This document shows positions 11,445 through 41,721 of a stretch of DNA of 64,000 bases, one piece after another. The translations under genes and the position numbers were made by a program. Below the pieces are notes generated by a model. It was given only the letters and a program-made list of their open reading frames with translations. It was not told the DNA's origin and ran no database searches. This DNA is from Odoribacter sp. Z80 (GTDB lineage Bacteria; Bacteroidota; Bacteroidia; Bacteroidales; Marinifilaceae). Numbering within the stretch: position 1 is the first letter of the stretch; every line of letters begins with the position of its first letter. The stretch covers positions 186,001-250,000 of the forward strand of contig NZ_QWEL01000003.1 in assembly GCF_009935865.1 (NCBI RefSeq), read 5' to 3'.

Positions 11445-12371
11445 ATGAATATAAAAATTAAAAACCTTACTAAAATATATCCGGACGGCCACAAGGCATT
11501 AAACAGTCTGAATTTAGAGATAGAGCCCGGAATGTTCGGATTATTAGGTCCTAATGGTGCCGGAAAAACTTCTCTGATGCGAATTATGACCTTATTACAG
11601 AATCCCTCCTCAGGAACCATTCTTTTTGATGATTATGACATCTTGCGTGACCGGAAAGCCATCCGTTCGATATTAGGTTACCTGCCGCAGGATTTCCGTT
11701 TTTTTGAAAAATTAAAGACCTGGGAATTTTTAGATTACGGGGCAGGTCTGGCCGGTATAAAAGGAACGCGGCACAGGGCCGAAGTGGTGGATGAAATGTT
11801 AAGGAAAGTGGGGCTTTATGAAGTGCGCGACCGGTGGGCGAACCGTTTATCCGGCGGTATGAAGCGACGGCTTGGTATAGCGCAAGCCATTGTGGGAAAC
11901 CCGAAAGTCATTATCGTTGACGAGCCGACCACCGGATTAGACCCGGAGGAACGGATCCGCTTCCGGAATATCCTGTCGGACGTGAGCAATAAAGATGTTA
12001 TTATTATCCTTTCCACCCACATTGTCGGCGATATATCCAGCACGTGCAAGAAATTGGCTTTACTGAACCGGGGAGAACTGAAATTTGAAGGCTCTCCGGA
12101 CGACATGATAGCTCTGGCTACAGGCAAAGTGTGGGAAATCTTTGTTACAGACCATGAATTGCAACAGGTTAAGGAAAAATATCCGATTATTTCCACCATT
12201 CCTACAGAAGGAGGCTGGGAAATCCAGGTAGTAGCAGAAGAAATGGAAGGGTTCTGCGGCAAACCCGTCACACCCAACATCGAACATGCTTATGTTTATT
12301 TTATGGACTATCTGCTAAAGGATAAGATGGACATGTACAGTGAAAAGATAGGAGGCGAACTATTTAATTAA
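11445..12371 (+). CDS. ABC transporter ATP-binding protein, first gene of hybrid export operon
   Basis: Stand-alone nucleotide-binding subunit of an ABC-2-type exporter. The A-loop Tyr lies in LTKIYPDG; Walker A is GPNGAGKTS (about residues 36-44), Q-loop LPQDF, signature LSGGMKRRLGIAQA, Walker B VIIVDEP followed by TTGLDP, and H-loop STHI. A C-terminal extension of about 80 residues follows. Its ATPase core is closely similar by eye to the ATPase part of the RND fusion five genes downstream (shared MFGLLGPNGAGKT, GYLPQ, WEFL, GLDPxERIRFRN), so the two are likely paralogues that pair. First gene of a seven-gene run with gaps of at most 24 nt. Confidence 0.95.
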   Translation: MNIKIKNLTKIYPDGHKALNSLNLEIEPGMFGLLGPNGAGKTSLMRIMTLLQNPSSGTILFDDYDILRDRKAIRSILGYLPQDFRFFEKLKTWEFLDYGAGLAGIKGTRHRAEVVDEMLRKVGLYEVRDRWANRLSGGMKRRLGIAQAIVGNPKVIIVDEPTTGLDPEERIRFRNILSDVSNKDVIIILSTHIVGDISSTCKKLALLNRGELKFEGSPDDMIALATGKVWEIFVTDHELQQVKEKYPIISTIPTEGGWEIQVVAEEMEGFCGKPVTPNIEHAYVYFMDYLLKDKMDMYSEKIGGELFN

Positions 12372-12395
12372 CCTGAATGACGAAAGAAAAATAAA

Positions 12396-15300
12396 ATGAC
12401 TCTGCACAATATCAATATCATAGCCCGATATGAAGTTAAATTGCTGAAAAGAAGCTGGCTTTTCCGGATTTTTGCCCTATTGGCTTTATTAGGCATCACT
12501 TTGATTACGTTAGGGTATCAAAGTTCAGTTTTTGGTTTAGACACGGTATGGCCCCGCCTGGCAGTCTCATCTCTGATGCCTTTCTGCAATATTTTTTTCT
12601 ATAACATCGCCCAATCCGTTATTGTTATTTTCCTTGCGGGAAGTTTTCTGAAAAGAGATAAAAAGTTAGATACGGCAGAGGTCATCTATGTCCGGCCCAT
12701 GAGCAATGCGGACTACATCATAGGAAAAACCTGGGGAATCGTAAAAGTATTTCTCGGTTTAAACCTGCTTTCCCTGTTCATCACTGCCTTTTTCAATATC
12801 GTCATCAACCACTCCCCTTTCAGTTGGTTCCCTTATGTATTTTACCTGTTTACCATTTCGCTGCCCTCCTTGCTTTTTGTATTAGGCCTGTCTTTCACAG
12901 TCATGTGCCTGTTGAAAAATCAGGCAGTGACCTTTATTCTTATGTTAGGTCTCACCGGTACCATATTTTTTTATCTTTCCGATACTTTATCCGGTGTCTT
13001 TGATTTTTTCGGAACATGTATCCCCACCATTTTTTCAGACGTCACCGGCCACAGCAACTTAGGATTGTTTCTGCTGCAACGGACCATCTACCTGCTTAGC
13101 GGAGCAGGTTTTATCGGTTTTACCATCGCATTGGTAAAAAGACTTCCGCATAAACCGTGGAAAAATTCCATAATCTATGCAATCAGCTGTTTATTAGTAT
13201 TAGCAGGAATAGCAGCGGGTTTGCTTTATGTCCTTGACTACAACCATCAGATCCGTCTGCGCAACGAATATGCTGCTACTTTCAACAAATATTCCCGGGC
13301 AAACCCGGTTTCCGTCATCAACCATGACCTGACCATCGTTCCTACAGGAAAACAACTCCAGGGAGAGAGTATTCTAAAAGTGAAAAACAGGCACTCCCAA
13401 TCTATCGAAGAGATTATCCTTTATCTGAACCCTTCATTGAAAGTGAAAGGTTTAAAAGCCGGAAACGAGGAATTGACCTTCACCCGGGAGAACCAGGTTA
13501 TCCTCATTCATAAGCAACTGGATGCAGGAGAAGAATTCACCTTTACCCTCCACTATCAGGGAAGCATTGATGAAAACATTTGCTATACGGATGTATCGGA
13601 AAAAGACTATACCGACAACACCGTTCCCCAGGCATTCTATCGTTTGGGCAAACGGTATGCCTGGTTAGAGCAGGACTTTACCCTGCTGACTCCCGAATGT
13701 ATCTGGTATCCCGTAACAATTGCCCCTGTCCATCCTGCAGAACCATACAACATCCAGAAAAATTTTGTCCATTACACCCTGACGGTCATTCCGCCAAAAG
13801 AGAAAACAGTGCTTTCGCAAGGGGAAAGCACCTCAAATGGCGATACAATCATTTTTACCAACCGGCATCCCCTGCCCGGCATCAGTCTGACGATTGCCGA
13901 TTATGACAAGAAATCTTTACAAATTGATTCAACCCTTTATGAAATCTACTATTTCAAAGGTCATGATTATTTTTCTTCTCATTTTTCCGCTTTACATGAT
14001 ACATTGCCCGGTGTCATCCGGGATCTTAAGAATGATGCGGAATTTTTAAATGGCCGCGACTACCCTTTCAGCAAATTCGTACTGGCAGAAACTCCTGTGC
14101 ATTTTGCCACCTATGTACGAAACTGGAAAGGATATACTGAATACGTTATGCCTGAAATCGTTTTTATTCCGGAACGAGGCGCTACCCTGAATTCTGATTT
14201 CAATGTCGAAAAAAGGCGGGTAGCCCGCCGGGGACGTCACAATCAAATGCCTCTCAGCGAAGAAGAAACCGCCATTCAGGTCTTCAACAGGTTCATGGAA
14301 AATTTTTTCAATGAAAATATACAATACGGATGGGACTGGCAAAACCAGTACATAAACAAACTGAATATCACTCCGCTTTTTTATTCTCATACCGGCTTCA
14401 TCCTTTCCGAGCAATATCCTATTCTGGACATAGTCCTGAATACGGTACAAAATGTTGCAAACACCTCTAACGTATTCCATTTCTGGGAAGGTATCATCAA
14501 TAATAAACAAAGGGCAAACCTGTATCTGGAGAATCATAGTTTCAGGGATGCCATTTCGAGTCCGGAATTAAAACCGGAAATTTTTTACGAATTGTTGAAA
14601 TTAAAAAGTATTGCCCTGAGAAATTACATTCAAACCCAAATACCACGGGATGACTTCAATCGTTTCCTGAAAGATTTTTTTGAAAGGAACCATTTTTCTG
14701 ATATACCTTTTGAAACTTTTGAAGCAGAATTTGAAGCAAAATTCGGGATTTCCCTTTCGGACTTCATCCCCCAATGGTATACGGAAGACCATTCACCGAC
14801 CATTCTGATACGGGAAGTGGATGCCAATCAGGTTGTCATAGATGATGAAACTAAATATCAAATCAGGTTTAAAGTTTATAATCCTTCCGATGTAGACGCT
14901 ATCATCACAGCCGAAATCCGGCAGGGAGGCGGTTTTCAGGGAGGCATAGAACCTGACAAAACGGGAAATTACCAGATTCCGGCACAACAAGCCCGTGAAA
15001 TTAAAATTATTGCAGACAACCGCCCCGCCAGCATCACCATCAATACGAATATTTCACATAATCTGCCGACAACTCATATTTTCAATTTTTCCAAAATCGA
15101 GAATATCATTTCGGACACGCTCGCCGGAAGTTTCGTTATCTCTCCGGCTCTCTTTGCCCCTAATCCCCATGAAATCATCATAGACAATGAAGACAGCGGT
15201 TTTCAAACCATTGCTTCCAATAAACGACATAAGTTAAAAGACCTTTTCCAAAAACAGGAACAGGAAAAGTATAAAAACTTCATGCCGTGGTGGACGCCAA

Positions 15301-15707
15301 CAAAATGGACCGCCATTGCTGCCGACTATTGCTATGGGGAAACTGTCCAGTCCGCCGTTTACAAAAGCAAGGGCAGCGGGCTGAATTCTGTAGAATGGCG
15401 GACAGAACTTCCCGGAGAAGGCTATTACGACGTATCTGTCTGGAATCCCAAGACCGGAGGTTCCTTCGGTATGAATTTCGGCCGCCGTAACCGGAGGGAC
15501 CGGGAAGAGAGAAATCAGACCTATGTAGTGGCATATGACCAGGAAAAAGAATCCATTACGCTTGATATGGAACAAGAAGATTCTGGATGGGTGTCATTAG
15601 GCAGTTTTTATTTCCCGAAAGGAGAGGTGAAAATCACATTGACAGATGATGTATCAGGTTCTTATGTCATCGCAGACGCTGTTAAATTTACAAGAATCAA
15701 TGAATAA
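12396..15707 (+). CDS. ABC-2 permease with M1-peptidase-like ectodomain and golvesin-like C-terminus
   Basis: 1103-residue membrane protein. Residues 20-280 hold about seven hydrophobic segments of an ABC-2 permease (20-40, 62-84, 112-136, 146-172, 177-197, 228-248, 258-280). The rest, about 820 residues, is predicted extracytoplasmic. Residues 300-500 resemble the N-terminal beta domain of permease/M1 aminopeptidase fusions. The helical 540-795 region lacks HExxH (at the place expected there is EEETAIQVFNRF), so peptidase activity is unlikely. Residues 965-1103 (WTAIAADYCY, GYYDVSVW, GWVSLGSFYF, DDVSGSYVIADAVKF) look like a golvesin/xanthan-lyase-type carbohydrate-binding fold. Its stop overlaps the next gene by 8 nt. 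Domain names rest on recalled family patterns. Confidence 0.85.
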   Translation: MTLHNINIIARYEVKLLKRSWLFRIFALLALLGITLITLGYQSSVFGLDTVWPRLAVSSLMPFCNIFFYNIAQSVIVIFLAGSFLKRDKKLDTAEVIYVRPMSNADYIIGKTWGIVKVFLGLNLLSLFITAFFNIVINHSPFSWFPYVFYLFTISLPSLLFVLGLSFTVMCLLKNQAVTFILMLGLTGTIFFYLSDTLSGVFDFFGTCIPTIFSDVTGHSNLGLFLLQRTIYLLSGAGFIGFTIALVKRLPHKPWKNSIIYAISCLLVLAGIAAGLLYVLDYNHQIRLRNEYAATFNKYSRANPVSVINHDLTIVPTGKQLQGESILKVKNRHSQSIEEIILYLNPSLKVKGLKAGNEELTFTRENQVILIHKQLDAGEEFTFTLHYQGSIDENICYTDVSEKDYTDNTVPQAFYRLGKRYAWLEQDFTLLTPECIWYPVTIAPVHPAEPYNIQKNFVHYTLTVIPPKEKTVLSQGESTSNGDTIIFTNRHPLPGISLTIADYDKKSLQIDSTLYEIYYFKGHDYFSSHFSALHDTLPGVIRDLKNDAEFLNGRDYPFSKFVLAETPVHFATYVRNWKGYTEYVMPEIVFIPERGATLNSDFNVEKRRVARRGRHNQMPLSEEETAIQVFNRFMENFFNENIQYGWDWQNQYINKLNITPLFYSHTGFILSEQYPILDIVLNTVQNVANTSNVFHFWEGIINNKQRANLYLENHSFRDAISSPELKPEIFYELLKLKSIALRNYIQTQIPRDDFNRFLKDFFERNHFSDIPFETFEAEFEAKFGISLSDFIPQWYTEDHSPTILIREVDANQVVIDDETKYQIRFKVYNPSDVDAIITAEIRQGGGFQGGIEPDKTGNYQIPAQQAREIKIIADNRPASITINTNISHNLPTTHIFNFSKIENIISDTLAGSFVISPALFAPNPHEIIIDNEDSGFQTIASNKRHKLKDLFQKQEQEKYKNFMPWWTPTKWTAIAADYCYGETVQSAVYKSKGSGLNSVEWRTELPGEGYYDVSVWNPKTGGSFGMNFGRRNRRDREERNQTYVVAYDQEKESITLDMEQEDSGWVSLGSFYFPKGEVKITLTDDVSGSYVIADAVKFTRINE

Positions 15708-17199
15708 AATGAATCATTTATTAAATAAACCTTCTATGTTAAAACAAACCTTCATCCTGGTTTTTCTGTTTTTTTCGGGCATGAGTCATTCTTTTGCCCA
15801 GGAGATTTTAACACTGGATAAAGCCCTGAGTATTGCTTTTGAACACAGTCCTTCGCTGATTCAAAGTAAACTCAGTCTTGAACAAAGAGAGTTAAACCTA
15901 AAAGCACAGGATGCCTCACTGAAATCCCAATTCTCATTGGATATCAATCCTTTCAATTACACCCGTAATAATCAATACGACAGTTATAATAGCAACTGGT
16001 ATGCCAACGAAATCATGAGTTCTTCCGCTTCGTTAGGCATCCGCCAGCCTATCAAGTGGACCGACGGAACCATTTCCCTTGTAAATGATTTATCCTGGCA
16101 GGACGCTTCCAACAAAACTTCCGGAGGAAAAAATACTTCTTTCAATCACAATCTGTCCCTCCGGTTAGAGCAACCTCTTTTCACCTACAACCGGACGAAG
16201 ATGCAGTTGAAGGAATTGGAGTATGCTTTAGAAAATGCCAAATTGAGCTATGCCATGCAGGAGTTAAACATAGAGAAAAACGTCACAACTCAATTTTACA
16301 GTGTTTATCAGAAACAAAAAGACCTGAATACAGCCCGGGATGAATATCACAATCAAAAACAAAATTACGACATCATCAAAAACAAGGTGGAAGCCGGTCT
16401 GGTTGCCAGGGAAGAATTATATCAGGCAGAAGTGAATCTGGCCACCAGTGAATCAAGTGTTTATTCGGCAGAAATCGACTATGAAAACTCAAAAGACAAT
16501 TTTAAACTTTTATTGGGTATTTCCTTGGATGAAGACATCATGGTGTTGCCCAATACCGATATTGTAACGGTCAACGTAAATTCGGACGATGCCACGAAAT
16601 ATGCCTTAGAGCAACGTATGGAACTCCGGCAAAAGCAGATTACCCTTGAACAGGATGTTTTCAATATTATCCGTGCCAAAGCTGAAAATGAGTTTAAAGG
16701 TAATCTGTCTGCCCGCATAGCTATGGACGCTTTAAGCGGAAAAGTGAAAAATCTGTACGACAATCCTACGGATAACGAGCAAATCGGAATCAGCCTGACC
16801 ATACCTATTTTTGACTGGGGGGCTAAAAAAGCAAAGGTAAAATCCAGTCAGTTGGCTATGGAATCGAATCAAATCGACATGGATGAGGAGAAGAAGAATA
16901 TCACCATAGGGGTACGTCAGATTTGCCGGAATCTGCCGATATTAATCCGTCAGATTGAAATTAAAAAAAAGAGCATTGAAAATGCGGAACACAGCTATGA
17001 AATAAACCTGGAGAAATACAGAAACGGCACCCTTACGGGTATGGAACTCCAACAATACCAGACCCAGCTGACAAACGCCAAACAAGCCTATACGAATGCT
17101 GTTATCAGCTATAAACTGGAAGTCCTTAATTTAAAGATACAGACTCTCTGGGATTTTGAAAGCAATAAATCCTATTTACCCGTAGACCTTTTGAAATAA
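15700..17199 (+). CDS. TolC-family outer membrane efflux protein
   Basis: Outer-membrane channel with a long periplasmic alpha-barrel. A signal peptide ends at SHSFAQ, followed by the usual opening EILTLDKALSIAFEHSPSLIQSK. Two OEP repeats follow, with long coiled-coil helices (QELNIEKNVTTQFYSVYQKQKDLNTARDEY and the matching NAEHSYEINLEKYRNGTLTGMELQQYQTQL). I chose ATG 15700, which overlaps the permease stop by 8 nt and suggests translational coupling; ATG 15709 is the alternative. 499 residues. It would be the outer-membrane exit duct of the operon. Confidence 0.92.
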   Translation: MNKMNHLLNKPSMLKQTFILVFLFFSGMSHSFAQEILTLDKALSIAFEHSPSLIQSKLSLEQRELNLKAQDASLKSQFSLDINPFNYTRNNQYDSYNSNWYANEIMSSSASLGIRQPIKWTDGTISLVNDLSWQDASNKTSGGKNTSFNHNLSLRLEQPLFTYNRTKMQLKELEYALENAKLSYAMQELNIEKNVTTQFYSVYQKQKDLNTARDEYHNQKQNYDIIKNKVEAGLVAREELYQAEVNLATSESSVYSAEIDYENSKDNFKLLLGISLDEDIMVLPNTDIVTVNVNSDDATKYALEQRMELRQKQITLEQDVFNIIRAKAENEFKGNLSARIAMDALSGKVKNLYDNPTDNEQIGISLTIPIFDWGAKKAKVKSSQLAMESNQIDMDEEKKNITIGVRQICRNLPILIRQIEIKKKSIENAEHSYEINLEKYRNGTLTGMELQQYQTQLTNAKQAYTNAVISYKLEVLNLKIQTLWDFESNKSYLPVDLLK

Positions 17200-17213
17200 A
17201 AACACATATTACA

Positions 17214-18272
17214 ATGAACAGATATTTAAAAATCAGCAGTATTATCGGTTTTGGACTATTGGTTGTTTCATGCAGGAATAATCAGGGAAACTCGGCAGCC
17301 GAAACCACTACCCCCGTATGGATTGAAGATGTACAATACAGAAATATCGAGGAGTATATTACAACAACGGGGACAGCCAAAGCAACCAAAACCATTGAGT
17401 TGAAATCGGAAACCAACGGAGCTTACCGTCTTCAAACTAATCCCAAAACGGGCCGTCCTTATCAATTGGGCGATATTGTGGAAGCCGGAGCTGTGATTGT
17501 CCGCCTGGAGAATCAGGAATATGAGAATAACGTTCAGTTGGAAAGTAAAAAATTACAAATTGAGATTACCGAAAAAGAATGGGAAGGACAAAAAGTATTG
17601 TATGAGAAAGGAGGAGCAACACAAAAAGACGTAACCAATGCAGAAAATTCGTACATCAATGCCAAGCTTGCCCTTGAGAATGCCTATATTACTTTAAATA
17701 AATTAAATATCAAGGCACCTTTCAAGGGAGTCATTGTCGCCCTGCCCTATTTCACTCCGCAGGTGGAGGTGGCTTCCGGAAGTACTATCGCCGAATTAAT
17801 GGATTACAGTAAAATGTATATAGAAACTCAATTCCCGGAAAATGCCTTAACAAAATTGGCAGTCGGTCAACCGGTACATGTGACGAATTATAATATTAAA
17901 TCGGATACGTTAAAAGGACGGCTGACACAACTTTCCCCGGCCATCAATGAAGATACGCGCACTTTCTCCGGCTATATCGCCATTGACAATCCTGACCTGA
18001 AACTGCGTCCCGGTATGTTTGCCAAGGCTGACGTAGTGACGATACGGAAAGATTCTGTGTTGTCAATTCCGAAAAATATCATCAAAAACCGGCGTGGAGG
18101 GAAATTAGTGTATACCGTCGACCGGAACAGTGCTACCGAGAAAGTTATCCGAACGGGTATCAGCGACGACAAATACATTGAAATTGAAACCGGTCTGGAA
18201 CCAGGGGATAAAATTGTCATCAAAGGTTATGAATGGCTGCGTAACCGGAGCAAAGTGAAAGTAATGAAATAA
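17214..18272 (+). CDS. RND-type membrane fusion (adaptor) lipoprotein
   Basis: Periplasmic adaptor linking inner-membrane pump and TolC channel. The leader ends in the lipobox LVVSC, with C20 as the lipidated residue. A lipoyl/barrel-sandwich half (ETNGAYRLQ..., GDIVEAGAVIVRLENQEYE) is followed by a short alpha-hairpin (about 95-160), the returning strand LNIKAPFKGVIVAL, a beta-barrel and the membrane-proximal domain (DKYIEIETGLEPGDKIVIKGYEWLR). 352 residues, 14 nt after the channel gene and 16 nt before the first RND gene. Confidence 0.94.
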   Translation: MNRYLKISSIIGFGLLVVSCRNNQGNSAAETTTPVWIEDVQYRNIEEYITTTGTAKATKTIELKSETNGAYRLQTNPKTGRPYQLGDIVEAGAVIVRLENQEYENNVQLESKKLQIEITEKEWEGQKVLYEKGGATQKDVTNAENSYINAKLALENAYITLNKLNIKAPFKGVIVALPYFTPQVEVASGSTIAELMDYSKMYIETQFPENALTKLAVGQPVHVTNYNIKSDTLKGRLTQLSPAINEDTRTFSGYIAIDNPDLKLRPGMFAKADVVTIRKDSVLSIPKNIIKNRRGGKLVYTVDRNSATEKVIRTGISDDKYIEIETGLEPGDKIVIKGYEWLRNRSKVKVMK

Positions 18273-18288
18273 TCAGCACCTTACCATT

Positions 18289-21200
18289 ATGATGGGAATA
18301 ACTAAATTTGCCGTAAAATACCCGGTCAGTGTATTAATGATTACCCTCGGAGTATGTCTGTTGGGCCTCATTTCCTATAATAAACTGGGAACGGATCTTT
18401 TTCCTGATTTAAAAAATCCGTCCCTTTACATTGATTTGCAGGCTGGCGAACGTCCGCCTGAAGAAATCGAGAAACAATTCGTACAAAGAATAGAGTCCAT
18501 GGCAGCCCGCCAGGAAGGGGTAAAAAACGTCAGTAGCAGCAGTAAAGCGGGAGGTGCTACCATTACCGTGGAATATGACTGGGACCAGGATATGGATGCG
18601 GCTTTTCTTGACCTTCAGCGCAGTATGTCGCAAATTGCCCAGAATGAGGAAATCACTTCACTGAATGTGAGCCGGTATGATGCGAATGCTACTCCAGTGA
18701 TGGTTATCTCCATGAGTCACAAGGAGATTAAAGATATGAACGAATTGCGCAAAATTGCAGAAAATTATATGCGCAGTGAGTTTGTGCGTTTAGACGGTGT
18801 TGCTGATTTACAACTAAACGGTCAGGAAGAGGCTTATGTGGAAATCAAAACCAATGCCTATATGTTAGAAGCTTTTCACCTGACAGCCGAAACAGTGGCT
18901 GCCAAAATTGAAAGCATGAACCGAAATGTGTCGGGAGGGATCATTGTCCACAACGACATTCAATATACCATAAAAGGGGTTAATCTGATTGAGAATTTAG
19001 AAGATATTGCCAATATCATAGTTGCCTTTAAAACCCCTTCGGACACGGAAGGAGAAACCTCCAATATAAAAGCTCCCGTCTATCTGAAAGACATTGCGAC
19101 TATAGAACTGAAAAATAAAGACCCGAAAAATCTGACCCGCTATAACGGGGAACGTTGTCTGAGTATCAGTATTTATAAGGAGAATAAGTACAATACTGTG
19201 AAAGCGGTGGAAAATATCACGGCAAAACTGGATGAGCTTCGAAAAAGCATGCCGGGTTATGAATTTCATATCATCAGCAACCAAGGAGATTTTATCGGAG
19301 CTTCCATCGGGGAAGTGAAAGATTCTGCCGTAATGGGTATTTTGCTGGCTATGATTATTCTTTATGTCTTTCTGCGCCGCATCAATACAACTCTGATTGT
19401 CAGTATATCCATACCGGTGTCTATCATAACCACCTTCAATCTCATGTATTTTAACGGTCTGACCATTAACATCATGACTTTAGGAGGACTGGCATTAGGA
19501 GCAGGAATGCTGATAGACAATGCCATTGTGGTAATGGAAAACATTTACCGTCATCTGGAAAACGGACTTTCTCCCAAAGAGGCGGCAATAAAAGGTACTT
19601 CCGAAGTCGCAGGAGCCATTACTTCCAGTACACTAACTACCATTGTCGTTTTTCTGCCTATTGTTTATATTCAAGGCGCTGCGGGCGAATTATTCAAAGA
19701 ACAGGCCTGGACGGTTTCTTTTTCCCTGCTTTCTTCCCTGTTTGTAGCTATCTTGCTGATTCCTATGCTGGCATCCCGGTACATTACCCGTCCCAACATC
19801 CAGAAAGAATCCATACAAATCAAAGGATATGGAAATTTTGTCGGAAGATTACTGAAACACCGTTATTTAGTGGTAGCAATATCTGTCATTCTGATTGCAG
19901 GCAGTTATATGCTGGTTCCTTTGTTGGATATGGAATTCATGCCGAAAGCCGAATCCAAAGAATTTTCCACTTTCATCACACTGGAACCGGGCACACGCCT
20001 CCAAAGTACAGACCATGCCGCCGCCACGCTTGAAAATATGATTACTGACCTGGCCGGCAATGAGCTGGAATGGATTTTCACACAGGTAGGTCCTTCCAAC
20101 ACGGAAAGCGAAAGCGGAGGCAAACTGGAGGAAGAAAATCAGGCAGAAATCAAGGTAAAACTGAAAAATGACGCCCGACTCAGCGCAGACTATCTCATCT
20201 CGGCTCTCAACCATCACTACACCTTTCCCGAAGGGATAGAAATTTCCTTTGAGAAAGAACAATCTGCCCTGCAAAGCATATTAGGAACGGAAGGCGCTCC
20301 CGTTGTAATAGAAGTCAAAGGGGAGGAGTTGGAGCTGATAGAAGAACTAAGTACGGAAATAAAAGAAAAACTGTCTTCCGTAGCGGGACTTTATAACATC
20401 CATACTTCCATGGAAAAAGGAGCCCCTGAAGTAAACATCTCCATCGACCGCCTGAAAAGTGGCATCTATGGAGTGGATATAGCCTCTGTAGCCTCTCAGG
20501 TAAAGGACAAACTAAACGGTAAAACAGCCAGTAATTTCAACACAGAAGGAGAACCCATCGACATTGAAATCCGTGTACCGGAAATTTCCTTAGAAGAATT
20601 ACAAAATGTAGAAATCAACCAGGGAGATAAGAAATACCGGTTAGGCGAAATCGCAGATATCTCCGTCACCATGGCTCCGAAAGAAATCAACCGAAACAAC
20701 CAAAACCGTACAGGCAAAGTGACTGCCATGTTGGAAAAGGAGTATACCCTCAGCGGGGTAACACCGGATATTCTGGAGAAATTAGAAGAAATCCAATTCC
20801 CTGCTAAATACTCGGCAAAAATCACAGGGGAAGAAGAAAAGCGGGCAGAATCTTTCAATGGCTTGTCGTTTGCATTGCTTCTTTCCATCGTACTGGTTTA
20901 TATGGTGATGGCTTCGCAATTCGAATCCCTGCGGCATCCGTTCACCATACTGCTGACTATTCCCTTAGCCGGTGTAGGCTGTATTTACGCTTTTCTGCTA
21001 ACAGGGGCATCCCTGAACATGATGGCCTTTATCGGAATCATTATGTTGGCTGGTATTGCCGTAAATAACTCCATTCTATTAGTAGATGCAGCCAATAAAC
21101 TGAAATCAAGCGGATTAAACCTCACGGAAGCCATCAAAGCCGCCGCACAACAGCGCATCCGGCCAATTATGATGACCAGCCTGACCACGATACTGGCCTT

Positions 21201-21348
21201 ATTACCCATGTGCTTTGGTTTCGGAGAAGGAGCCTCCCTGCGTTCTCCGATGGCTTTAGCTGTTATCGGAGGGTTATTTACTTCCACTGTTATGACCCTG
21301 GTAGTCATACCATGTGTCTACTACCTGTTTGACAAAAAAGAAAAGTAA
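18289..21348 (+). CDS. RND efflux transporter, first pump subunit of hybrid operon
   Basis: AcrB/HAE1-like inner-membrane pump of 1019 residues with the usual two-fold repeat: a first helix at about 12-30, a large periplasmic loop, helices 345-500, a second loop and helices 865-1015. The helix-4 motif is GMLIDNAIVVMENI (D410, N411), so the second Asp of the AcrB pair is Asn. The helix-10 position of AcrB Lys940 is also Asn (AVNNSILLVD, N926). These substitutions occur in a known RND subclade. ATG 18292 is an alternative start. It lies 20 nt before the second RND gene and may form a mixed trimer with it, as MdtB and MdtC do. Confidence 0.95.
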   Translation: MMGITKFAVKYPVSVLMITLGVCLLGLISYNKLGTDLFPDLKNPSLYIDLQAGERPPEEIEKQFVQRIESMAARQEGVKNVSSSSKAGGATITVEYDWDQDMDAAFLDLQRSMSQIAQNEEITSLNVSRYDANATPVMVISMSHKEIKDMNELRKIAENYMRSEFVRLDGVADLQLNGQEEAYVEIKTNAYMLEAFHLTAETVAAKIESMNRNVSGGIIVHNDIQYTIKGVNLIENLEDIANIIVAFKTPSDTEGETSNIKAPVYLKDIATIELKNKDPKNLTRYNGERCLSISIYKENKYNTVKAVENITAKLDELRKSMPGYEFHIISNQGDFIGASIGEVKDSAVMGILLAMIILYVFLRRINTTLIVSISIPVSIITTFNLMYFNGLTINIMTLGGLALGAGMLIDNAIVVMENIYRHLENGLSPKEAAIKGTSEVAGAITSSTLTTIVVFLPIVYIQGAAGELFKEQAWTVSFSLLSSLFVAILLIPMLASRYITRPNIQKESIQIKGYGNFVGRLLKHRYLVVAISVILIAGSYMLVPLLDMEFMPKAESKEFSTFITLEPGTRLQSTDHAAATLENMITDLAGNELEWIFTQVGPSNTESESGGKLEEENQAEIKVKLKNDARLSADYLISALNHHYTFPEGIEISFEKEQSALQSILGTEGAPVVIEVKGEELELIEELSTEIKEKLSSVAGLYNIHTSMEKGAPEVNISIDRLKSGIYGVDIASVASQVKDKLNGKTASNFNTEGEPIDIEIRVPEISLEELQNVEINQGDKKYRLGEIADISVTMAPKEINRNNQNRTGKVTAMLEKEYTLSGVTPDILEKLEEIQFPAKYSAKITGEEEKRAESFNGLSFALLLSIVLVYMVMASQFESLRHPFTILLTIPLAGVGCIYAFLLTGASLNMMAFIGIIMLAGIAVNNSILLVDAANKLKSSGLNLTEAIKAAAQQRIRPIMMTSLTTILALLPMCFGFGEGASLRSPMALAVIGGLFTSTVMTLVVIPCVYYLFDKKEK

Positions 21349-21368
21349 GAAAAGGGAATGCATATTCA

Positions 21369-24300
21369 ATGATGATGAAGAAATTGATTAATCGTAAAGT
21401 TCTGATTTCCATGCTATTCATCGGTTTAACCATGATGGGATGGTTCTCGTACAGATATTTACCGATGGAATTATACCCTGACGCAGAGTTTCCGGCCCTC
21501 AATGTAAATATCACTGCCAAAACAGAACTTGATCCGGAATATATTAAGAACCAGGCGGCCATACCGGTAGAAGGAGTTATCAGCGGCATGGAAGGCGTAG
21601 AAGAAATCAATACCCGGATTTCCACCCAGAATGCCCGAATCCTGGTTTCTTTTACCAAAAACACCAACATTAAATATGCTTATCTGAAACTGGAAGAAAA
21701 AATCAAAATTTTAGCCAAGAATCTGCCGGAAGAGTTTACGGTGCAAGTGAATAAAGCAGGGAGCAACATGGCCAGCGACCAGTTTATGACACTTCAGATT
21801 CTGGGAGAAGAAGACATTGATTATGTCCGGAACATTACAGACAGTGACATTGCGCCGGTATTGGAAAGCACGGATGGCGTTGCTTCCGTGGTTGTCCTCG
21901 GCGGCCGGCAAAAAAGCATCGAAATTCTCTTAGACCAGGAGAAATGCAAGGCTTTAAACATTACCAACTCACAAATCAGTTCCCTGATTAGCAAAAACAT
22001 GTCGGAAAAAACTTTTGCCGGCTCTGTCTATCAAAATGTGAAGCGTTATTTTGTCAATGTAACAGCAGAATACCTGCAAACGGAAGACCTGGGAAATATC
22101 GTTGTGGCTTCCGGACCGGTGCTGCTAAAAGACATTGCAGACATTCATTTCGGTATCAAAGAGGAAGAATCCTATTCACGGGTGAACGGGAAGGAAGTCA
22201 TCACTTGCATTATAGCCAAATCTCCGTTAGTGAACATCATAGACTTGTCTAAACGCATCCGGAAAGAAATCGGCCAATTAAATGAAGAATTAGCTTCCAG
22301 GGGAATTTCCATAAAAGTAGATACCGACGTGGCAGAAACCATGAATGAAAATATCAATACCATCATCAATCTGGGTATAACAGGAGCTATCCTGGCGATT
22401 TTTATTCTTTATCTTTTTCTGCGCAATTTCAAAATTGTCACTTTCATTGCCTTTGCTATCCCCATCTCGGTTTTTTCTGCCTTCTATTTCTTTTATTTCT
22501 TCGGGATCAGCATCAATACCCTTACATTGACCGGTATAGCCTTAGCAGTCGGCATGTTATTGGATAATTCGGTTGTCGTCATGGAAAATATATTCCGTCT
22601 CAGGGCCATCGGCATCCCGGCGGAGCAGGCAGCCGTGCAAGGAACCAAAGAGGTGACCAAAGCAATCATTGCCGCCACCGCCACGACCATAACGGTATTT
22701 CTCCCTTTTCTCTTCTCAGATGACTTTTTGTTGAAACTTATCGGCGAGCACATCGGTGTATCTATCATCACCACCCTGATATTATCCTTAGTTGTAGCAT
22801 TACTGCTGATTCCCATGGCAGTGAATCAATTCATGAGAAAACAAGGGGAAAAAGTGAATTTCAGCACCCTCTCTATTCATAGCCGGCCGGTACAGATTTA
22901 CATTGTTCTGTTGAAAATGTGCCTGAGGAAACCGGCAGGGGTCATTTTTTCTGCCATCCTTCTTTTATTGGTGACGGTTGCATTGTCCCTGACAATGACG
23001 ATGAATACGTTGAAAGAGATTGAAACAGATACATTCAATCTCTACCTGACCTTCCCCAACGGAAATACCCTTAACCGTACGGACGAGGTAGTCAGATCTT
23101 ACGAAGAACGCTTAGATGAAATTCCCGAAATCAAACAATACAGCACTAAAATTTATGCCAATGATGCCAGTGTCACTATCAAGCTTCACGAAGATTATGA
23201 GAAAATCGGAAAGAAATCTTTAGATGAACTGAAAAATATAGTGATTTCCCAAACTCAGGGACTACGTATCAGCAATGTCAGTTTTGAAGCCATCGAAAGC
23301 AGTGAAAATTTCCAGGGCGGAGGCGGCAGTGCTCTGATGGGTGGAGGAGATAAATTACTGAGAAAAATGGGAATGGGAAGCCAAAGTGAAAAAATAGTCA
23401 TTAAAGGCCAGGATTTTGAAAAAATGGCTAATCTGGCCGAACTTCTCGAATATCAGGTAAAGGAACTGGACAATGTAAGTTATGCCTATATCAGTTATTC
23501 CCGCGGGAAACCGGAAGCCCGGATTATTTTCGACCAATACCTGATGGGAATTTATGACGTTGCTCCTACCCATGTCGTCAGCGAACTGGTTAATTTCGCC
23601 CCGCAAAATACGACTTCCATCAAATACAAAGCCGGAGAGGAGGAATATGATATTATTATTAAAGATAAAGAATTGTCACTCAAAAAAGAGGAGGAAAATG
23701 AAACTCCCGTCAGAAACCTCGAAGACCTCCGGAATCTCCAGGTGAGTAATGCCCAGAACTCCATTATTGACTTACAGAATTTCAGCAATATCCGTCTGGG
23801 ATGGGGACGAAGTAATATCATACGGGTTAATCAAGACCAGGAGATTACGGTCAATTACCGTTTCAATTCGGATGTCAACGAATCGAAAGATGTGCTGACT
23901 GCTGCCCGGGACGAAATCGACGAATTGGTCCAGCAAACCGACATCCCGACAGGGGTAGCGGTGGAAATCGTCCATGAAGAAGATGAAACCGGCGAGTTCA
24001 CCTTCCTGATTCTGGCAGCTTTTATCCTCATCTATATGATTCTGGCTTCTGTCTTCGAATCTTTGACTGCTCCTGTCGTTCTGATGTTTGCCATACCGCT
24101 GGCAGCCATCGGTTCTTTGCTGGCACTCCTGTTTACGAGCAATTCGTTAATGAATGCCAACGTGCTTATTGGCGTTATCATCCTAATCGGTATTGTCGTC
24201 AACAACAGTATTATTCTGATTGACTATGCTTCCCAATTGCGACGCCAGGGGAACCGTAAACCCCGGGCTCTCCTGATAGCAGGGATTTCGCGTTTGCGAC

Positions 24301-26123
24301 CTATTCTGATTACCGCTATCACCACAATTGTGGCTATGCTTCCGTTAGCCATGGGGAAAGGTGAATTTGTTGCCGGTCTGGGTGCTCCTTTTGCGATAAC
24401 AGTCATCGGTGGCCTGACTATGAGTACTTTGCTGACTTTAGTGATTATTCCCACTTTGTATTCAGGCCTGGAGGATGCCCTGTTGCGTTTAAGAACTCAG
24501 AGGCTGTTTATGAAAATCCTGCAAACTGCCCTTCTGATACTGGCTATTACAGGTATTTATTTCCTCAGTCCTTCTTTAATCACACGTTTAGGATACTTAG
24601 CCGGGGCCGTAATCCTGATTCCTGCTGCCACATGGTTTATGGAAACGAGTTTACGTCAAGCCAACAGCCGCATTATCGCTCCGGAAGAAGAAATTCATAT
24701 CTCCATTCGTAATCTGGTCAAAATATACGGCCGCCCCAACGAATTCCAAAGGGAATGGCTCTCCGGCCAGCGTACACGCGAAAGATTAGGCATTAAAGAA
24801 GAATATCATACGTTAAAGGACTTGCAGCCGCTTGTCTGGTTACTGCCCCTCACCGCATTTATGGTTTACTTCACCTACTCTTACCAGACATTACCTTTCT
24901 GGGCTGTTGTTTTTGCCATTTGCACCTGGTTATTGGTCAATCAGGTTATTTCTGCCGGCAAATCGTATTTTGCCTGGAACAATAAACGGATTGCCTTCCA
25001 GTGTATGCACGCAGCAGCTGTGATGGTATACTACGTTTCTCCGCTGCTTTCATTAATCTGCATTGCCGTAAAATTTTCCGATTCAAAGATTGCGACTTTA
25101 TTGGGTCTGCTCTGGTATATTTCCATTGCTGCACATTATCTGTCCAAACGCATCCATAAATACAACATTAATATCGACCAGATAGAAGGACGTTTCCGGA
25201 ACATTAAAAAAGCCGTTTATCAGGCAACTGCTAAAATCCCGTTTCTGGGCTATAAAAAAGCACCTTTCAAAGCTCTTAACGCAGTGTCTATGGATATTCA
25301 CACGGGTATGTTCGGACTATTAGGCCCCAACGGTGCCGGTAAAACCACCCTCATGCGCATCATCTGCGGTATTTTTGAACAGAGTTACGGAAAAATATTC
25401 ATCAACGGTATTGATACTCAAAAGAAAAGAGAAGAATTACAGGGGTTAATCGGTTATTTACCCCAGGAATTCGGTACTTATGAAAATCTCACCTCCTGGG
25501 AATTTTTAGAATATCAGGCCCTACTGAAAGGCATCTACCAGCCTGATGTCCGGAAACAGCGCATTACGGAAGTGCTGGAAGCCGTACATATGTATGAAAA
25601 CAAAGACAAGAAAATCGGCGGTTTCTCCGGTGGCATGAAACAACGGATCGGAATTGCACAAACCCTGCTCAACCTGCCCCGCATCCTTGTGGTAGACGAA
25701 CCGACAGCAGGCCTTGATCCAAGAGAACGCATCCGTTTCCGTAACCTGCTTGTGGAACTTTCCCGGAACCGGATTGTCATTTTTTCTACCCATATCATCG
25801 AAGACATTGCCAGTTCGTGTAACCAGGTGGGAGTTATTAATAAAGGTTCGCTGAAATACCACGGGACACCTTCGGATATGGTAAATATTGCGCAAAACGT
25901 CACCTGGACATTCGAGATTCCGGCCCGGGAATTTGCAAAACTACCGGCAGACCTTCTGATTGTTCACCACATCCGCAACGGAGAATACATTAAAGTAAGA
26001 TGTTTATCTGAAGTTCAGCCTGTACCGGATGCCGTCCGGACCGCCCCTCTCCTGGAAGATTCTTATTTGTGGCTGCTCCGAAACGTTAAATTAGCCAATC
26101 ACGAACAAATTATCACACAATAA
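21369..26123 (+). CDS. RND transporter fused to an ABC ATPase domain interrupted by a membrane segment
   Basis: A single uninterrupted frame of 1584 residues. Residues 1-1035 are a full RND pump (helix-4 motif GMLLDNSVVVMENI with D399/N400, helix-10 motif GIVVNNSIILID with N945). Two further hydrophobic segments follow (about 1048-1064 and 1074-1090). Residues 1110-1121 (HISIRNLVKIYG) match the first strand and A-loop Tyr of an ABC ATPase. Residues 1122-1297 are inserted, with about four hydrophobic segments (1154-1170, 1176-1192, 1211-1233, 1240-1258). The ATPase resumes at FKALNAVSMDI: Walker A 1319-1327, Q-loop YLPQEF, signature FSGGMKQ (1419-1425), Walker B VVDEP (1441-1445), H1475. All catalytic motifs are intact. 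ATG 21375 is an alternative start. Architecture is read from the sequence; function is inferred. Confidence 0.93.
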   Translation: MMMKKLINRKVLISMLFIGLTMMGWFSYRYLPMELYPDAEFPALNVNITAKTELDPEYIKNQAAIPVEGVISGMEGVEEINTRISTQNARILVSFTKNTNIKYAYLKLEEKIKILAKNLPEEFTVQVNKAGSNMASDQFMTLQILGEEDIDYVRNITDSDIAPVLESTDGVASVVVLGGRQKSIEILLDQEKCKALNITNSQISSLISKNMSEKTFAGSVYQNVKRYFVNVTAEYLQTEDLGNIVVASGPVLLKDIADIHFGIKEEESYSRVNGKEVITCIIAKSPLVNIIDLSKRIRKEIGQLNEELASRGISIKVDTDVAETMNENINTIINLGITGAILAIFILYLFLRNFKIVTFIAFAIPISVFSAFYFFYFFGISINTLTLTGIALAVGMLLDNSVVVMENIFRLRAIGIPAEQAAVQGTKEVTKAIIAATATTITVFLPFLFSDDFLLKLIGEHIGVSIITTLILSLVVALLLIPMAVNQFMRKQGEKVNFSTLSIHSRPVQIYIVLLKMCLRKPAGVIFSAILLLLVTVALSLTMTMNTLKEIETDTFNLYLTFPNGNTLNRTDEVVRSYEERLDEIPEIKQYSTKIYANDASVTIKLHEDYEKIGKKSLDELKNIVISQTQGLRISNVSFEAIESSENFQGGGGSALMGGGDKLLRKMGMGSQSEKIVIKGQDFEKMANLAELLEYQVKELDNVSYAYISYSRGKPEARIIFDQYLMGIYDVAPTHVVSELVNFAPQNTTSIKYKAGEEEYDIIIKDKELSLKKEEENETPVRNLEDLRNLQVSNAQNSIIDLQNFSNIRLGWGRSNIIRVNQDQEITVNYRFNSDVNESKDVLTAARDEIDELVQQTDIPTGVAVEIVHEEDETGEFTFLILAAFILIYMILASVFESLTAPVVLMFAIPLAAIGSLLALLFTSNSLMNANVLIGVIILIGIVVNNSIILIDYASQLRRQGNRKPRALLIAGISRLRPILITAITTIVAMLPLAMGKGEFVAGLGAPFAITVIGGLTMSTLLTLVIIPTLYSGLEDALLRLRTQRLFMKILQTALLILAITGIYFLSPSLITRLGYLAGAVILIPAATWFMETSLRQANSRIIAPEEEIHISIRNLVKIYGRPNEFQREWLSGQRTRERLGIKEEYHTLKDLQPLVWLLPLTAFMVYFTYSYQTLPFWAVVFAICTWLLVNQVISAGKSYFAWNNKRIAFQCMHAAAVMVYYVSPLLSLICIAVKFSDSKIATLLGLLWYISIAAHYLSKRIHKYNINIDQIEGRFRNIKKAVYQATAKIPFLGYKKAPFKALNAVSMDIHTGMFGLLGPNGAGKTTLMRIICGIFEQSYGKIFINGIDTQKKREELQGLIGYLPQEFGTYENLTSWEFLEYQALLKGIYQPDVRKQRITEVLEAVHMYENKDKKIGGFSGGMKQRIGIAQTLLNLPRILVVDEPTAGLDPRERIRFRNLLVELSRNRIVIFSTHIIEDIASSCNQVGVINKGSLKYHGTPSDMVNIAQNVTWTFEIPAREFAKLPADLLIVHHIRNGEYIKVRCLSEVQPVPDAVRTAPLLEDSYLWLLRNVKLANHEQIITQ

Positions 26124-26142
26124 ACCACACCAGTCTGTCATC

Positions 26143-26847
26143 ATGAAATCCTATATCCTTTCACCAATAGCGAAACTGAGCCGGTATAATATCAAAATTA
26201 TCTTCGGGAATAAATTTATTTATTTCGTATTGAGTGCCATCGGTTTCTATATACTGACTGTCGGCATCAGTCTTTTTTCGGACAACGAAATAACCATGGC
26301 CAGCGGATATAACATGTTATTGGTGCCCTCCATCCTATTGGTTTTCTATCCGACCTGTTTCGGTATACAGAACGATCAGGATGCTAAAATTATAGAGATC
26401 ATTTTCGGCATACCGAACTATCGGTATAAAGTATGGCTTTTCCGGCTTATCATAGCCTATGCGATTTGTTTTTTGCTCACCCTGCTGCTGGCAATGCTTA
26501 CCGATTGGATGGTTGTTGAAGTTCCTCCTGTGGAACTCACTTTGCAGGTTATGGTTCCGGCTTTGTTTACCGGCATACTCTGTTTTATGCTCAGTACTTT
26601 TATCCGAAACGGAAACGGAACTGCCGTTATGATTATCATCATCGGTATGCTCCTGTTTGTACTTCACAAAGTCTTAGGCATCAGCAAATGGAATCTTTTC
26701 CTAAACCCTTTTGACGTACCATTAGATAAAAATCCGAGAATTTTCTACAATACGGTTTTCGACAACCGACTGCTGATTCTTTGTGCCACGTTAGTGTGCC
26801 TGTTGACCGGCCTCTATAAAACCCAGAACCGCGAAAAGTTTATATAG
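26143..26847 (+). CDS. ABC-2-type permease, last gene of hybrid operon
   Basis: 234-residue integral membrane protein with about six hydrophobic segments (roughly 27-46, 57-76, 98-121, 133-152, 158-178, 212-226). The N-terminus SPIAKLSRYNIKIIFGNKFIYFVL resembles the entry of ABC-2 permeases. It lies 19 nt after the RND-ATPase fusion, so it probably serves as a second transmembrane partner with the large permease. Its stop overlaps the convergent dnaG end by 8 nt. I do not recognise a narrower family. Confidence 0.8.
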   Translation: MKSYILSPIAKLSRYNIKIIFGNKFIYFVLSAIGFYILTVGISLFSDNEITMASGYNMLLVPSILLVFYPTCFGIQNDQDAKIIEIIFGIPNYRYKVWLFRLIIAYAICFLLTLLLAMLTDWMVVEVPPVELTLQVMVPALFTGILCFMLSTFIRNGNGTAVMIIIIGMLLFVLHKVLGISKWNLFLNPFDVPLDKNPRIFYNTVFDNRLLILCATLVCLLTGLYKTQNREKFI

Positions 26848-28792: not shown

Positions 28793-28917
28793 CAAAAACA
28801 AATATTGATAGTATATTTCATACATATATAAATAAAAACTTTTCAGGTCCATTTTTATAAGATATCTTACCTAAATATTTTTAACAAGATTTCAATTTCA
28901 TTTTGGCACGATTTTTG

Positions 28918-28925
28918 TACTTTTG
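28918..28925 (+). promoter_or_regulatory. -7 element of the TetR gene
   Basis: TACTTTTG matches TAnnTTTG exactly, 85 nt before the chosen ATG. A long-frame ATG at 28903 lies upstream of this element and so is unlikely to be used. Confidence 0.45.
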
Positions 28926-29010
28926 CGATTCGCGGAAACACTTCACACGGATTTCGTTTCCATATATTGTTCGTACAAGATATAGAAAACTAAAATGTGT
29001 ACTAATTTAT

Positions 29011-29649
29011 ATGACAGAAAGTGAATTCTACCGGACAAAAGAAGAATTACTGGAAAATATTTCGGAATTATTCCTGAAATACGGTCTGCGCAGTACTTCT
29101 ATGGATGATATTTGTTCACATTTAAAAATTTCAAAAAAGACTTTATATCAATTTTTCAGCAACAAAGACGACCTGGTAGAACAAGTGCTGTTACAACGCA
29201 GAGATAGCCGGCGGATTCAGAAAGACCTGGAACAACTGAAACAACATAATTCCATAGAAATCATGCTATCCATCCGGGACCACATCATTACCAGCCTGAA
29301 CAGCCAAATGCCAGCCAATCTTTTCGATCTGAAAAAATATCATCCGGATATTTATCAACGGGTAAACGAAAAGGACCAGATATTCATTCAGAATCTGTTC
29401 CATGAAGTGATTGAAAAAGGCATTCGTGAAAGTTACTTTCGAAACGATATTCACCGGGAAGTACAGGTATATCTGTTTGTGAAGCAAATGGCCTTTCTGG
29501 GAGAACCGGAACTGATGAGTGAAATCAAATATCCGCTCGACATCATTGTTTCCACCATTGTAGAAAATGTGATCCGCAGTTTTGCCACCCCCCGAGGGAT
29601 AGAAGAATTAGAAAAATTACTTAATAAAACAAAAAAATATACAATATAA
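29011..29649 (+). CDS. TetR-family transcriptional regulator
   Basis: 212-residue regulator. The N-terminal TetR DNA-binding domain is clear: FLKYGLRSTSMDDICSHLKISKKTLYQFFSNKDDLVEQVL at about residues 19-58, with the helix-turn-helix around DICSHLKISKKTLYQFF. The C-terminal ligand/dimer domain is divergent. It precedes the tolC-like, adaptor and RND genes of the second pump operon on the same strand, and a palindrome lies in the intervening spacer, so it is probably their local repressor; the ligand is unknown. The start MTESEFYRTKEELLENI is preferred because the -7 element lies between it and the longer start. Confidence 0.92.
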   Translation: MTESEFYRTKEELLENISELFLKYGLRSTSMDDICSHLKISKKTLYQFFSNKDDLVEQVLLQRRDSRRIQKDLEQLKQHNSIEIMLSIRDHIITSLNSQMPANLFDLKKYHPDIYQRVNEKDQIFIQNLFHEVIEKGIRESYFRNDIHREVQVYLFVKQMAFLGEPELMSEIKYPLDIIVSTIVENVIRSFATPRGIEELEKLLNKTKKYTI

Positions 29650-29694
29650 ATTTGTAATAAAATAAGGAACGGAATAGCCCTAAAATAGTGGCAT

Positions 29695-29720
29695 ACAATT
29701 TGTAGGCTACAAGATATTGT
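29695..29720. promoter_or_regulatory. palindromic operator candidate before the second RND operon
   Basis: Core TTGTAG-G-CTACAA (29700-29712) flanked by ACAAT and ATTGT, which extends the two-fold symmetry. It is the only clear palindrome in the 113-nt spacer after the tetR gene and is of the size TetR dimers bind. Confidence 0.5.
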
Positions 29721-29762
29721 AAAAAATAGGAAAATAAATATAAAATCAATAATTAAAACAGA

Positions 29763-31052
29763 ATGAAAAGAGGAGTATTAATCACATTCATGGCAATTCT
29801 TATTCCCTGGTTGCTGCAAGCACAGGAAACCCCCAATGAACCTCAAAATCTGTCATTGGAGCAAGCCGTCACTTTTGCTGTAAAATACAACAAGGAACTG
29901 CAGGTTTCCCAGAAAAATATAGAATTGAGGAACAAAATGGTTACGGAAGCTATTTCACAAGGCTTACCCCAAATTAACGCAGGTCTGGATTACGTTACCT
30001 ACTTCGGAAAGAAGATGGACATTATGGGCAGTTCCATGGATATGTCCTCATCCACTTTAAACGGTAGTATTTCGCAATTGCTTTTCAGCGGACAATGGAT
30101 TCTGGGTATTCAAACCAGTAAAATTGCCAAGCAGATCGCTGCGCAAGAAGTAGATTTAACCGAACTGGACATTAAAGAAACGGTATACAATTCCTATTAT
30201 ACGATCCTGGCCAGTGAGCGCCTCATGGAAATTGTAAAGGAAAACCTGGAGAATATGAATAAAATCCAGGCACATACCGAGAATATGTACAAAGCAGGTA
30301 CGGCAGAAATCACCGATGTAGACCAAATCCGCATTACGGTGGGACAATTGAAAAACAGTTTGCTGGTTATGCAACGAACGGTGGACGTTAACTATAATCT
30401 GCTCCGCCTCCAACTTGGATTACAAGCCGGAACCCCCATTACCCTGACCGATGCTTTTGAAAAATTTCTGGAGGAAGGCAGTTTTCTCCAACTGGCTCTC
30501 CAACCGTTTGACCTGAACAAAAATACACAATATCAGCTGATGCAAACCCAGGAAGAGCTCCAGAAAAAAATGGTGGGTTTAAAAAAATGGGCCTATGCTC
30601 CTACTTTGTCAGCAAACTATAATTTTAACCACAAATTGCTGGCTCCGGGCTTCAATATGAGTTTAAAACATTCAGCCACATTCACATTGAACGTCCCCAT
30701 TTTCTCCGGCCTGCAACGAAAAGCACAGTTGGACCAGGAAAAAATCACCCTGGAACAGACGGTTTTAAACAAAAGCCTACTGGAAGATCAATTGTATTTA
30801 CAGGAAGAACAATACAAATTTGCCCTGAGAAATGCATTGGAAGATTATAATCTGCAAAAAGAAAACATCGAAGTAGCTAAAAAGGTATTGAACAATTACC
30901 AGTATAAATACAATGCCGGAGCTGTTTCCAGCCTGGACCTGACCCAGGCCAACAACAACTACCTGACGGCTGAAAATAACTATACTTCTGCCTGTCTGAC
31001 ATTGCTACAAGCCCAGACTCAATTGGAAAAATTGTATAACGAATTAAAATAA
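29763..31052 (+). CDS. TolC-family outer membrane protein of second RND pump
   Basis: 429-residue outer-membrane efflux protein. The signal peptide ends near LLQAQE; the mature part opens NLSLEQAVTFAVKYNKELQVSQKNIELRNKMVTEA. Two OEP repeats follow, with coiled-coil helices and the late motif KYNAGAVSSLDLTQANNNYLTAENNY. It starts the pump operon, 24 nt before the adaptor gene. Order (channel, adaptor, RND) matches the XepCAB-like pumps of Porphyromonas and other Bacteroidales. Confidence 0.93.
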   Translation: MKRGVLITFMAILIPWLLQAQETPNEPQNLSLEQAVTFAVKYNKELQVSQKNIELRNKMVTEAISQGLPQINAGLDYVTYFGKKMDIMGSSMDMSSSTLNGSISQLLFSGQWILGIQTSKIAKQIAAQEVDLTELDIKETVYNSYYTILASERLMEIVKENLENMNKIQAHTENMYKAGTAEITDVDQIRITVGQLKNSLLVMQRTVDVNYNLLRLQLGLQAGTPITLTDAFEKFLEEGSFLQLALQPFDLNKNTQYQLMQTQEELQKKMVGLKKWAYAPTLSANYNFNHKLLAPGFNMSLKHSATFTLNVPIFSGLQRKAQLDQEKITLEQTVLNKSLLEDQLYLQEEQYKFALRNALEDYNLQKENIEVAKKVLNNYQYKYNAGAVSSLDLTQANNNYLTAENNYTSACLTLLQAQTQLEKLYNELK

Positions 31053-31076
31053 GAAATAACATAAATACAAAACACA

Positions 31077-32114: not shown

Positions 32115-32121
32115 TCCCTTT

Positions 32122-32163
32122 AATTTATCCTTACGGTCTCCAAAAACCGTAAAGCCATAAATT
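32122..32163 (+). repeat. intercistronic stem-loop between adaptor and RND genes
   Basis: Outer arms AATTTAT/ATAAATT and inner arms TTACGG/CCGTAA pair with a 2-nt/4-nt interior loop and a 10-nt apical loop. No T-run follows, so it is more likely to affect mRNA processing or differential expression than full termination. Confidence 0.5.
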
Positions 32164-32194
32164 ATAAAATAACAGTCTTATAAATTAAAAGAAT

Positions 32195-40224: not shown

Positions 40225-40295
40225 ATATTTTATTTTACTTTTCAATATATAACGTAACAAATGGATAAATGTTTGTTTTAAAACGAAACGAATAG

Positions 40296-41249: not shown

Positions 41250-41273
41250 AATCTTTGCTTTACATTCAAATAG

Positions 41274-41281
41274 CAAAAATA
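41274..41281 (-). promoter_or_regulatory. -7 element of the TPR gene
   Basis: Minus-strand TATTTTTG matches TAnnTTTG, 24 nt before the chosen TPR start. No clear -33 element. Confidence 0.4.
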
Positions 41282-41312
41282 ATATTTTTCTCCTAATCCT
41301 CTCCGGGATTTC

Positions 41313-41518: not shown

Positions 41519-41539
41519 TTGCTTAAAATTTCAATAAAT

Positions 41540-41719: not shown

Positions 41720-41721
41720 TC

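Follow-up and report, generated by a model that had tools for sequence, protein, structure and literature searches.

RND pumps and ABC exporters are usually regarded as two distinct engines that serve tripartite efflux as alternatives. Systems of the MdtABC/MuxABC type combine an adaptor with two different, adjacent RND permeases and a TolC-type partner, as does the locus of Odoribacter sp. Z80 described here; however, they include no ABC exporter genes and carry no ATPase on either RND protein, whereas in this locus six helices and an ABC ATPase domain (NBD) are attached to one of the two. MacAB-TolC likewise brings together an ABC exporter, an adaptor and TolC, but the NBD of MacB is fused to its own permease, which has another fold, and the system has no RND module. 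The locus does not belong to the MacB family, which is marked by an N-terminal NBD on a 4-TM permease: its fused domain, NBD2, lies at the C-terminus of an RND protein, and the permeases of the cluster match ABC-2 models. The ABC permease/M1-aminopeptidase exporters of the Bacteroidota, which are of the ABC-2 kind, possess the NBDs closest by profile and also have an M1-like domain following the second TMD half. Nevertheless, both TMD halves of these exporters are found in one protein and the HExxH motif is kept, while the cluster has separate genes and an apparently dead peptidase, and adds a golvesin domain and a second NBD fused to an RND protein. The nearest solved structures of NBD2 are from NosDFY and ABCA/DrrA-type ABC-2 transporters, which differ in having no RND partner and an NBD that is not split by a membrane insert. 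An ATP motor followed by an ion-gradient-driven protein of the RND superfamily, both acting on one substrate, is described for SecA and SecDF (PMC8277102); those are separate proteins serving protein translocation, and the likeness to the fusion is one of analogy only. A targeted look through part of this large review gave no report of an RND-ABC fusion, and no prior description was found in the open-licence literature; a mention in a database or a closed paper is possible. Each part of the cluster is of a known kind; no match was found for the covalent joining of the parts, for the split NBD or for the seven-gene hybrid as a conserved unit.

The fusion is encoded by gene six of seven closely spaced genes on the same strand, covering 11445-26847 of the window, i.e., the whole 64-kb stretch of DNA analyzed. 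The gaps between these genes measure 14-28 bases, apart from a short overlap caused by the upstream extension of the TolC frame. This seven-gene setting was overlooked in the earlier note. Besides the fusion, the cluster comprises:

11445..12371, + strand: NBD1, a stand-alone ABC ATPase of 308 aa and first gene of the cluster (Pfam ABC_tran, 106 bits), in the same place in relatives
12396..15707, + strand: PERM1, 1103 aa, with an ABC-2 TM half (residues ~1-300), an M1-peptidase-like part (~300-960) and a golvesin domain (970-1100)
15736..17199, + strand: TolC-type outer membrane factor (Pfam OEP, 145 bits)
17214..18272, + strand: MFP, the periplasmic adaptor subunit, 352 aa (NCBIfam RND_mfp, above cut-off)
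18289..21348, + strand: RND1, a stand-alone RND permease of 1019 aa (Pfam ACR_tran, 756 bits), with MdtB as best solved relative
26143..26847, + strand: PERM2, 234 aa, the putative second ABC-2 type transmembrane half (ABC2_membrane_2/_3 in a minority of homologues)

The TolC frame is open from 15646, but relatives align from about residue 31, and the ATG at 15736 is the probable start. A Bacteroidota promoter motif was looked for upstream of NBD1 and not found. The order NBD1, PERM1, TolC, MFP, RND1, RND2::NBD2, PERM2 recurred in 39 loci from different genomes as far as the contigs reach, with RND1 and the fusion gene adjacent in every cluster and the adaptor and outer membrane factor genes (MFP, TolC) upstream of them in the window, a conserved placement. 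NBD1, PERM1 and PERM2 accompany the fusion wherever the contig of a sampled locus extends far enough to include them. A divergent arrangement was seen in one genome (G322) with two clusters (L096, L097) of 27-48% identity, in which TolC lies at the end, behind the position of PERM2, and the fusion, about 30% identical to that of the window, is still present; PERM2 was not recognized by BLAST in L096.

Two further gene groups were observed in the window. Just past a convergent dnaG lies a second, ordinary efflux operon (28903-35356) consisting of a TetR-type regulator, TolC, MFP and an RND permease with a canonical D-D-K relay, and a similar RND gene follows the hybrid cluster in several relatives (L060, L061, L068, L075, L076). 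The region 37544-43076 holds import genes of iron-siderophore/cobalamin type, judged by sequence appearance only:

37544-38554: putative import permease
38551-39378: putative import ATPase
42267-43076: putative import binding protein

The frame 21369-26123 (+) comprises 1584 uninterrupted codons encoding 1584 aa. The claim of the earlier note that a single frame of this length holds an RND pump as well as an ABC ATPase was borne out, as no stop interrupts it and both Pfam models are complete; furthermore, of the two findings named there as telling against the claim, neither a frame broken between the domains by a stop or frameshift nor absence of the fusion from relatives was seen. Homologues of the fusion were found in 32 of 35 genomes of the same family, some of them single-contig assemblies, and nearly all align end to end (the homologue of G003 ends at a contig end). 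Homologues in other families are about 46-50% identical. Of 294 genomes sampled from the order, 43 have the fusion, as do 6 of 394 genomes sampled across the phylum and 2 of 197 from another class; its spread beyond the order within the phylum is sporadic. The nearest named genomes are those of Odoribacter and Butyricimonas. Complete fusions measure 1532-1633 aa, truncated matches being due to contig ends or limits of the aligned stretch, and no complete unfused version was found in the sampled genomes of family, order, phylum and another class. An assembly or frameshift artefact is ruled out by the intact homologues in many genomes. Free-standing relatives of linker plus NBD were sought as well, but strong matches spanning the linker occur only in fused frames, the others being NBD-only or spurious extensions running through stops. 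Two further candidates were discarded: a 1324-aa frame at L165, taken at first for a further NBD fusion, arises spuriously from GC-rich DNA ahead of an ordinary NBD, and a 1488-aa RND frame in G484 proved to be an RND-TolC rather than an RND-ABC fusion. At L196:3402-7868 (-), a 1488-aa RND permease bears a TolC-like outer membrane factor domain at its C-terminus, and an adaptor gene adjoins.

Within the fusion the following segments were distinguished:

21369..24482, + strand: RND2 module (residues 1-1038), a complete 12-TM RND permease (Pfam ACR_tran)
24483..24692, + strand: two extra transmembrane helices (residues 1039-1108)
24693..24731, + strand: detached strand 1 and A-loop of NBD2, ISIRNLVKIY (residues 1109-1121)
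24732..25265, + strand: membrane insert within NBD2 (residues 1122-1299), predicted as an amphipathic helix and about four TM helices
25266..25898, + strand: NBD2 core (residues 1300-1510; Pfam ABC_tran), catalytic motifs all intact
25899..26123, + strand: C-terminal extension of NBD2 and stop (residues 1511-1584), with a conserved LEDSYLWLL motif

RND2 shows the full-length RND (HAE) architecture, made up of two TM repeats and two periplasmic ones. Pfam ACR_tran matches residues 2-1032 with 541 bits over model positions 1-1018 of 1021, and the best solved relative is again MdtB. The TM4 aspartate D399 (D407 of AcrB) is identical in all 38 full-length fusions and the TM11 arginine R975 (R971 of AcrB) is invariant among them; the equivalent of D408, by contrast, is N (rarely S/T) and that of K940 is N throughout, i.e., the full AcrB-type set D407, D408, K940 and R971 is absent from RND2. 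RND1 resembles it in that the TM11 arginine and the first of the two TM4 aspartates of AcrB are retained; neither RND protein has the TM10 lysine or the other TM4 aspartate in any relative. The same D-N-N pattern was met in 23 of 26 stand-alone RND proteins sampled across the phylum as a control. The relay variant thus reads as a subfamily trait, which excludes an AcrB-type relay but not membership of the RND family.

The segment joining RND2 to the NBD2 core was found to be more than a linker. The AlphaFold model places the two extra helices at residues 1046-1066 and 1070-1099, where hydropathy peaks at 1062 and 1083, and ISIRNLVKIY (1111-1120) was modelled as a strand. A strand-1 profile built from stand-alone NBD1 sequences only gave its best linker window at residue 1111 in 38 of 38 fusions, with a median score of 19.5 as compared to -1.7 at the second best window, and the A-loop tyrosine Y1120 is identical in all 38. 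ISIRNLVKIY thus supplies the first strand and the A-loop that the NBD2 core lacks. The NBD fold is not continuous: between the core and strand 1 with the A-loop lies a membrane insert of variable length (112-228 aa, median 180), whose amphipathic helix carries REWxSGxKxRERLG and for which four long helices were modelled. This corrects the earlier note, which had the ABC ATPase span residues 1110-1510 with intact motifs: the motifs are intact, but 1111-1120 stands apart from the core at 1300-1510, the detached strand and the insert having been overlooked. The topology closes, leading from the cytoplasmic RND C-terminus via two helices out and back to the strand, and via four helices out and back to the NBD. 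For residues 1039-1584, the AlphaFold model has intermediate confidence values (pLDDT 74, pTM 0.49); it supports the helix count, not the packing. A degenerate ABC TMD was considered as origin of the linker and rejected: profile comparison gave no similarity of the insert to PERM1, to PERM2 or to the two TMDs of the ABC permease/M1 proteins. At L113:11049-15647 (+) a fusion with a far shorter insert (112 aa as compared to the median of 180) was observed, which is useful for defining the minimal linker.

In the NBD2 core, Pfam ABC_tran covers residues 1303-1447 (complete model, 100 bits). Walker A K1325, Q-loop Q1366, signature S1420-G1421-G1422, Walker B D1443-E1444 and H-loop H1475 are identical in 38 of 38 full-length fusions, which were aligned from diverse genomes. 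The median identity to members from other families amounts to 74% for the NBD2 core and 69% for the detached strand, to 48% for RND2 and to 27-30% for the membrane linker. These values indicate strong selection on NBD2 for ATPase function, the conservation being as expected of a working enzyme, and the contrast between core and linker excludes chance as the source of the fusion. The closest solved relatives of NBD2 are TM_1403, ABCA transporters and NosF, all of the ABC-2/ABCA kind. The fused domain is 44% identical to NBD1; in the NBD tree the NBD1s and NBD2s of the clusters form separate groups on long branches, and an origin of NBD2 as a recent duplicate is not settled.

PERM1 and PERM2 are plausibly two halves of one ABC exporter, as judged by the following comparisons. 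Among PERM1 homologues, Golvesin_C was detected in 35 of 35, ABC2_membrane_2 in 17 and Peptidase_M1 in 13, and in the ABC permease/M1 proteins it is the second TMD to which the TM half corresponds (hhalign 98.8%). The match of PERM2, a small six-helix protein, to the TMDs of the same proteins is moderate (72% for the first half, 35% for the second); ABC2_membrane_2 or _3 is recognized in a minority of its 37 homologues, weakly but recurrently (best E 2e-8), and the sequence of the window's own PERM2 has no Pfam match. Where a genome lacks the cluster, the NBDs most similar to NBD1 and NBD2 are encoded beside a permease in which an active M1 peptidase follows a pair of ABC-2 halves, with HExxH kept in 18 of 20 inspected loci. 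By contrast, about 800 residues of PERM1 lie outside the membrane, and although the AlphaFold model (pLDDT 86) has the M1 aminopeptidases IRAP and ERAP1 as best PDB matches, the HExxH zinc motif is absent from 37 of 38 PERM1 sequences; in the remaining one (L058), a fortuitous match at residue 885 lies elsewhere than the equivalent site. The M1 domain of PERM1 is to all appearances degenerate, a dead peptidase whose zinc site was lost across the family; the M1 fold and the golvesin end may have been co-opted for peptide binding or docking.

Taken together, the cluster encodes a tripartite RND pump (RND1, RND2, MFP, TolC) with NBD2 covalently tied to RND2, and probably also the parts of one ABC-2 exporter (NBD1, NBD2, PERM1, PERM2), both TMDs included. 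With modest confidence, we read the fusion as the connecting piece of a hybrid ABC/RND trans-envelope exporter, in which NBD2 provides the ABC half with its second ATPase. NBD1 and NBD2 would form one two-site ATPase driving PERM1/PERM2, which would lift or flip the substrate at the inner membrane; the periplasmic domains of PERM1, i.e., the inactive M1 peptidase and the golvesin domain, would pass it to an MdtBC-like RND1/RND2 trimer, and this trimer would use the ion gradient to expel it via a shared MFP and TolC. The six extra helices would anchor NBD2 at the membrane by the RND and join both machines at fixed stoichiometry. The pairing of NBD1 with NBD2, the co-assembly of RND1 with RND2 and the common use of MFP and TolC are deduced from gene content, and a precedent for two RND subunits is given by MdtBC, which acts as an MdtB2C1 heterotrimer (PMC7015380). 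That ATP hydrolysis by the split, membrane-anchored NBD and the ion gradient of the RND are mechanically coupled in a single polypeptide, primary and secondary active transport being consecutive and obligatory strokes on one substrate of a dual-energy exporter, is a tentative extension that we would not expect to hold in most outcomes.

An MdtB2C-like trimer with two RND2 copies would have two NBD2s, and this could allow a homodimer of NBD2 instead of its pairing with NBD1. Such a homodimer, set side by side by the two RND2 copies, might gate the RND trimer or switch its assembly in an ATP-dependent manner, while the ABC-2 permeases are separate, co-transcribed and served by NBD1 alone; NBD2 retains every motif that a symmetric dimer needs and its linker is RND-tethered and membrane-embedded, but the constant company of NBD1, PERM1 and PERM2 is left unexplained, with PERM2 directly downstream and no cluster without them, and we regard this alternative as unlikely. 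Mechanotransmission has been proposed for MacB, LptB2FG and NosDFY. Here, ATP-driven motion of PERM1/PERM2 might move the pseudo-peptidase and golvesin domains of PERM1 and thereby load or gate the RND-MFP conduit with no transfer of substrate across the inner membrane. The large extramembrane part of PERM1 with its dead M1 fold and the presence of NosF among the nearest solved NBD relatives are in line with this, yet the resemblance is at the level of the fold only and PERM1 does not have the MacB fold, which makes it rather improbable.

The earlier note had offered two readings, and they fared differently. Its proposal of an ABC exporter beside the RND conduit is the better supported one, because the same operon encodes NBD1, PERM1 and PERM2, which are kept with the fusion. 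Nothing shows, however, that ATP energizes the RND. Hydrolysis by NBD2 in place of the proton gradient was initially suggested by the missing TM10 lysine, which together with the second TM4 aspartate is lacking from both RND proteins in all relatives, but this was dropped after the control: the lost lysine is not proof of an ATP-driven RND because the same pattern is common in stand-alone RND proteins, and D399 and R975 are invariant; direct energizing is therefore very unlikely. Finally, adjacent genes often fuse into a single polypeptide in evolution, and the join might be a neutral tether with no functional coupling, or a sequencing or assembly error. Against this, the two parts are fused in all sampled complete clusters from several families and classes with invariant motifs, the split form was found in none of the sampled genomes and linker-plus-NBD matches are confined to fused frames, so that this last explanation is hardly credible.

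The conserved covalent join, in an operon with full sets of both engines, makes the question of whether they work as a single machine directly testable. Moreover, the NBD of every member tolerates a multi-helix membrane insert between the A-loop strand and the core, which is unusual for the NBD fold. Since the cluster is present in gut genera (Odoribacter, Butyricimonas), it may matter to how these commensals tolerate drugs and bile.
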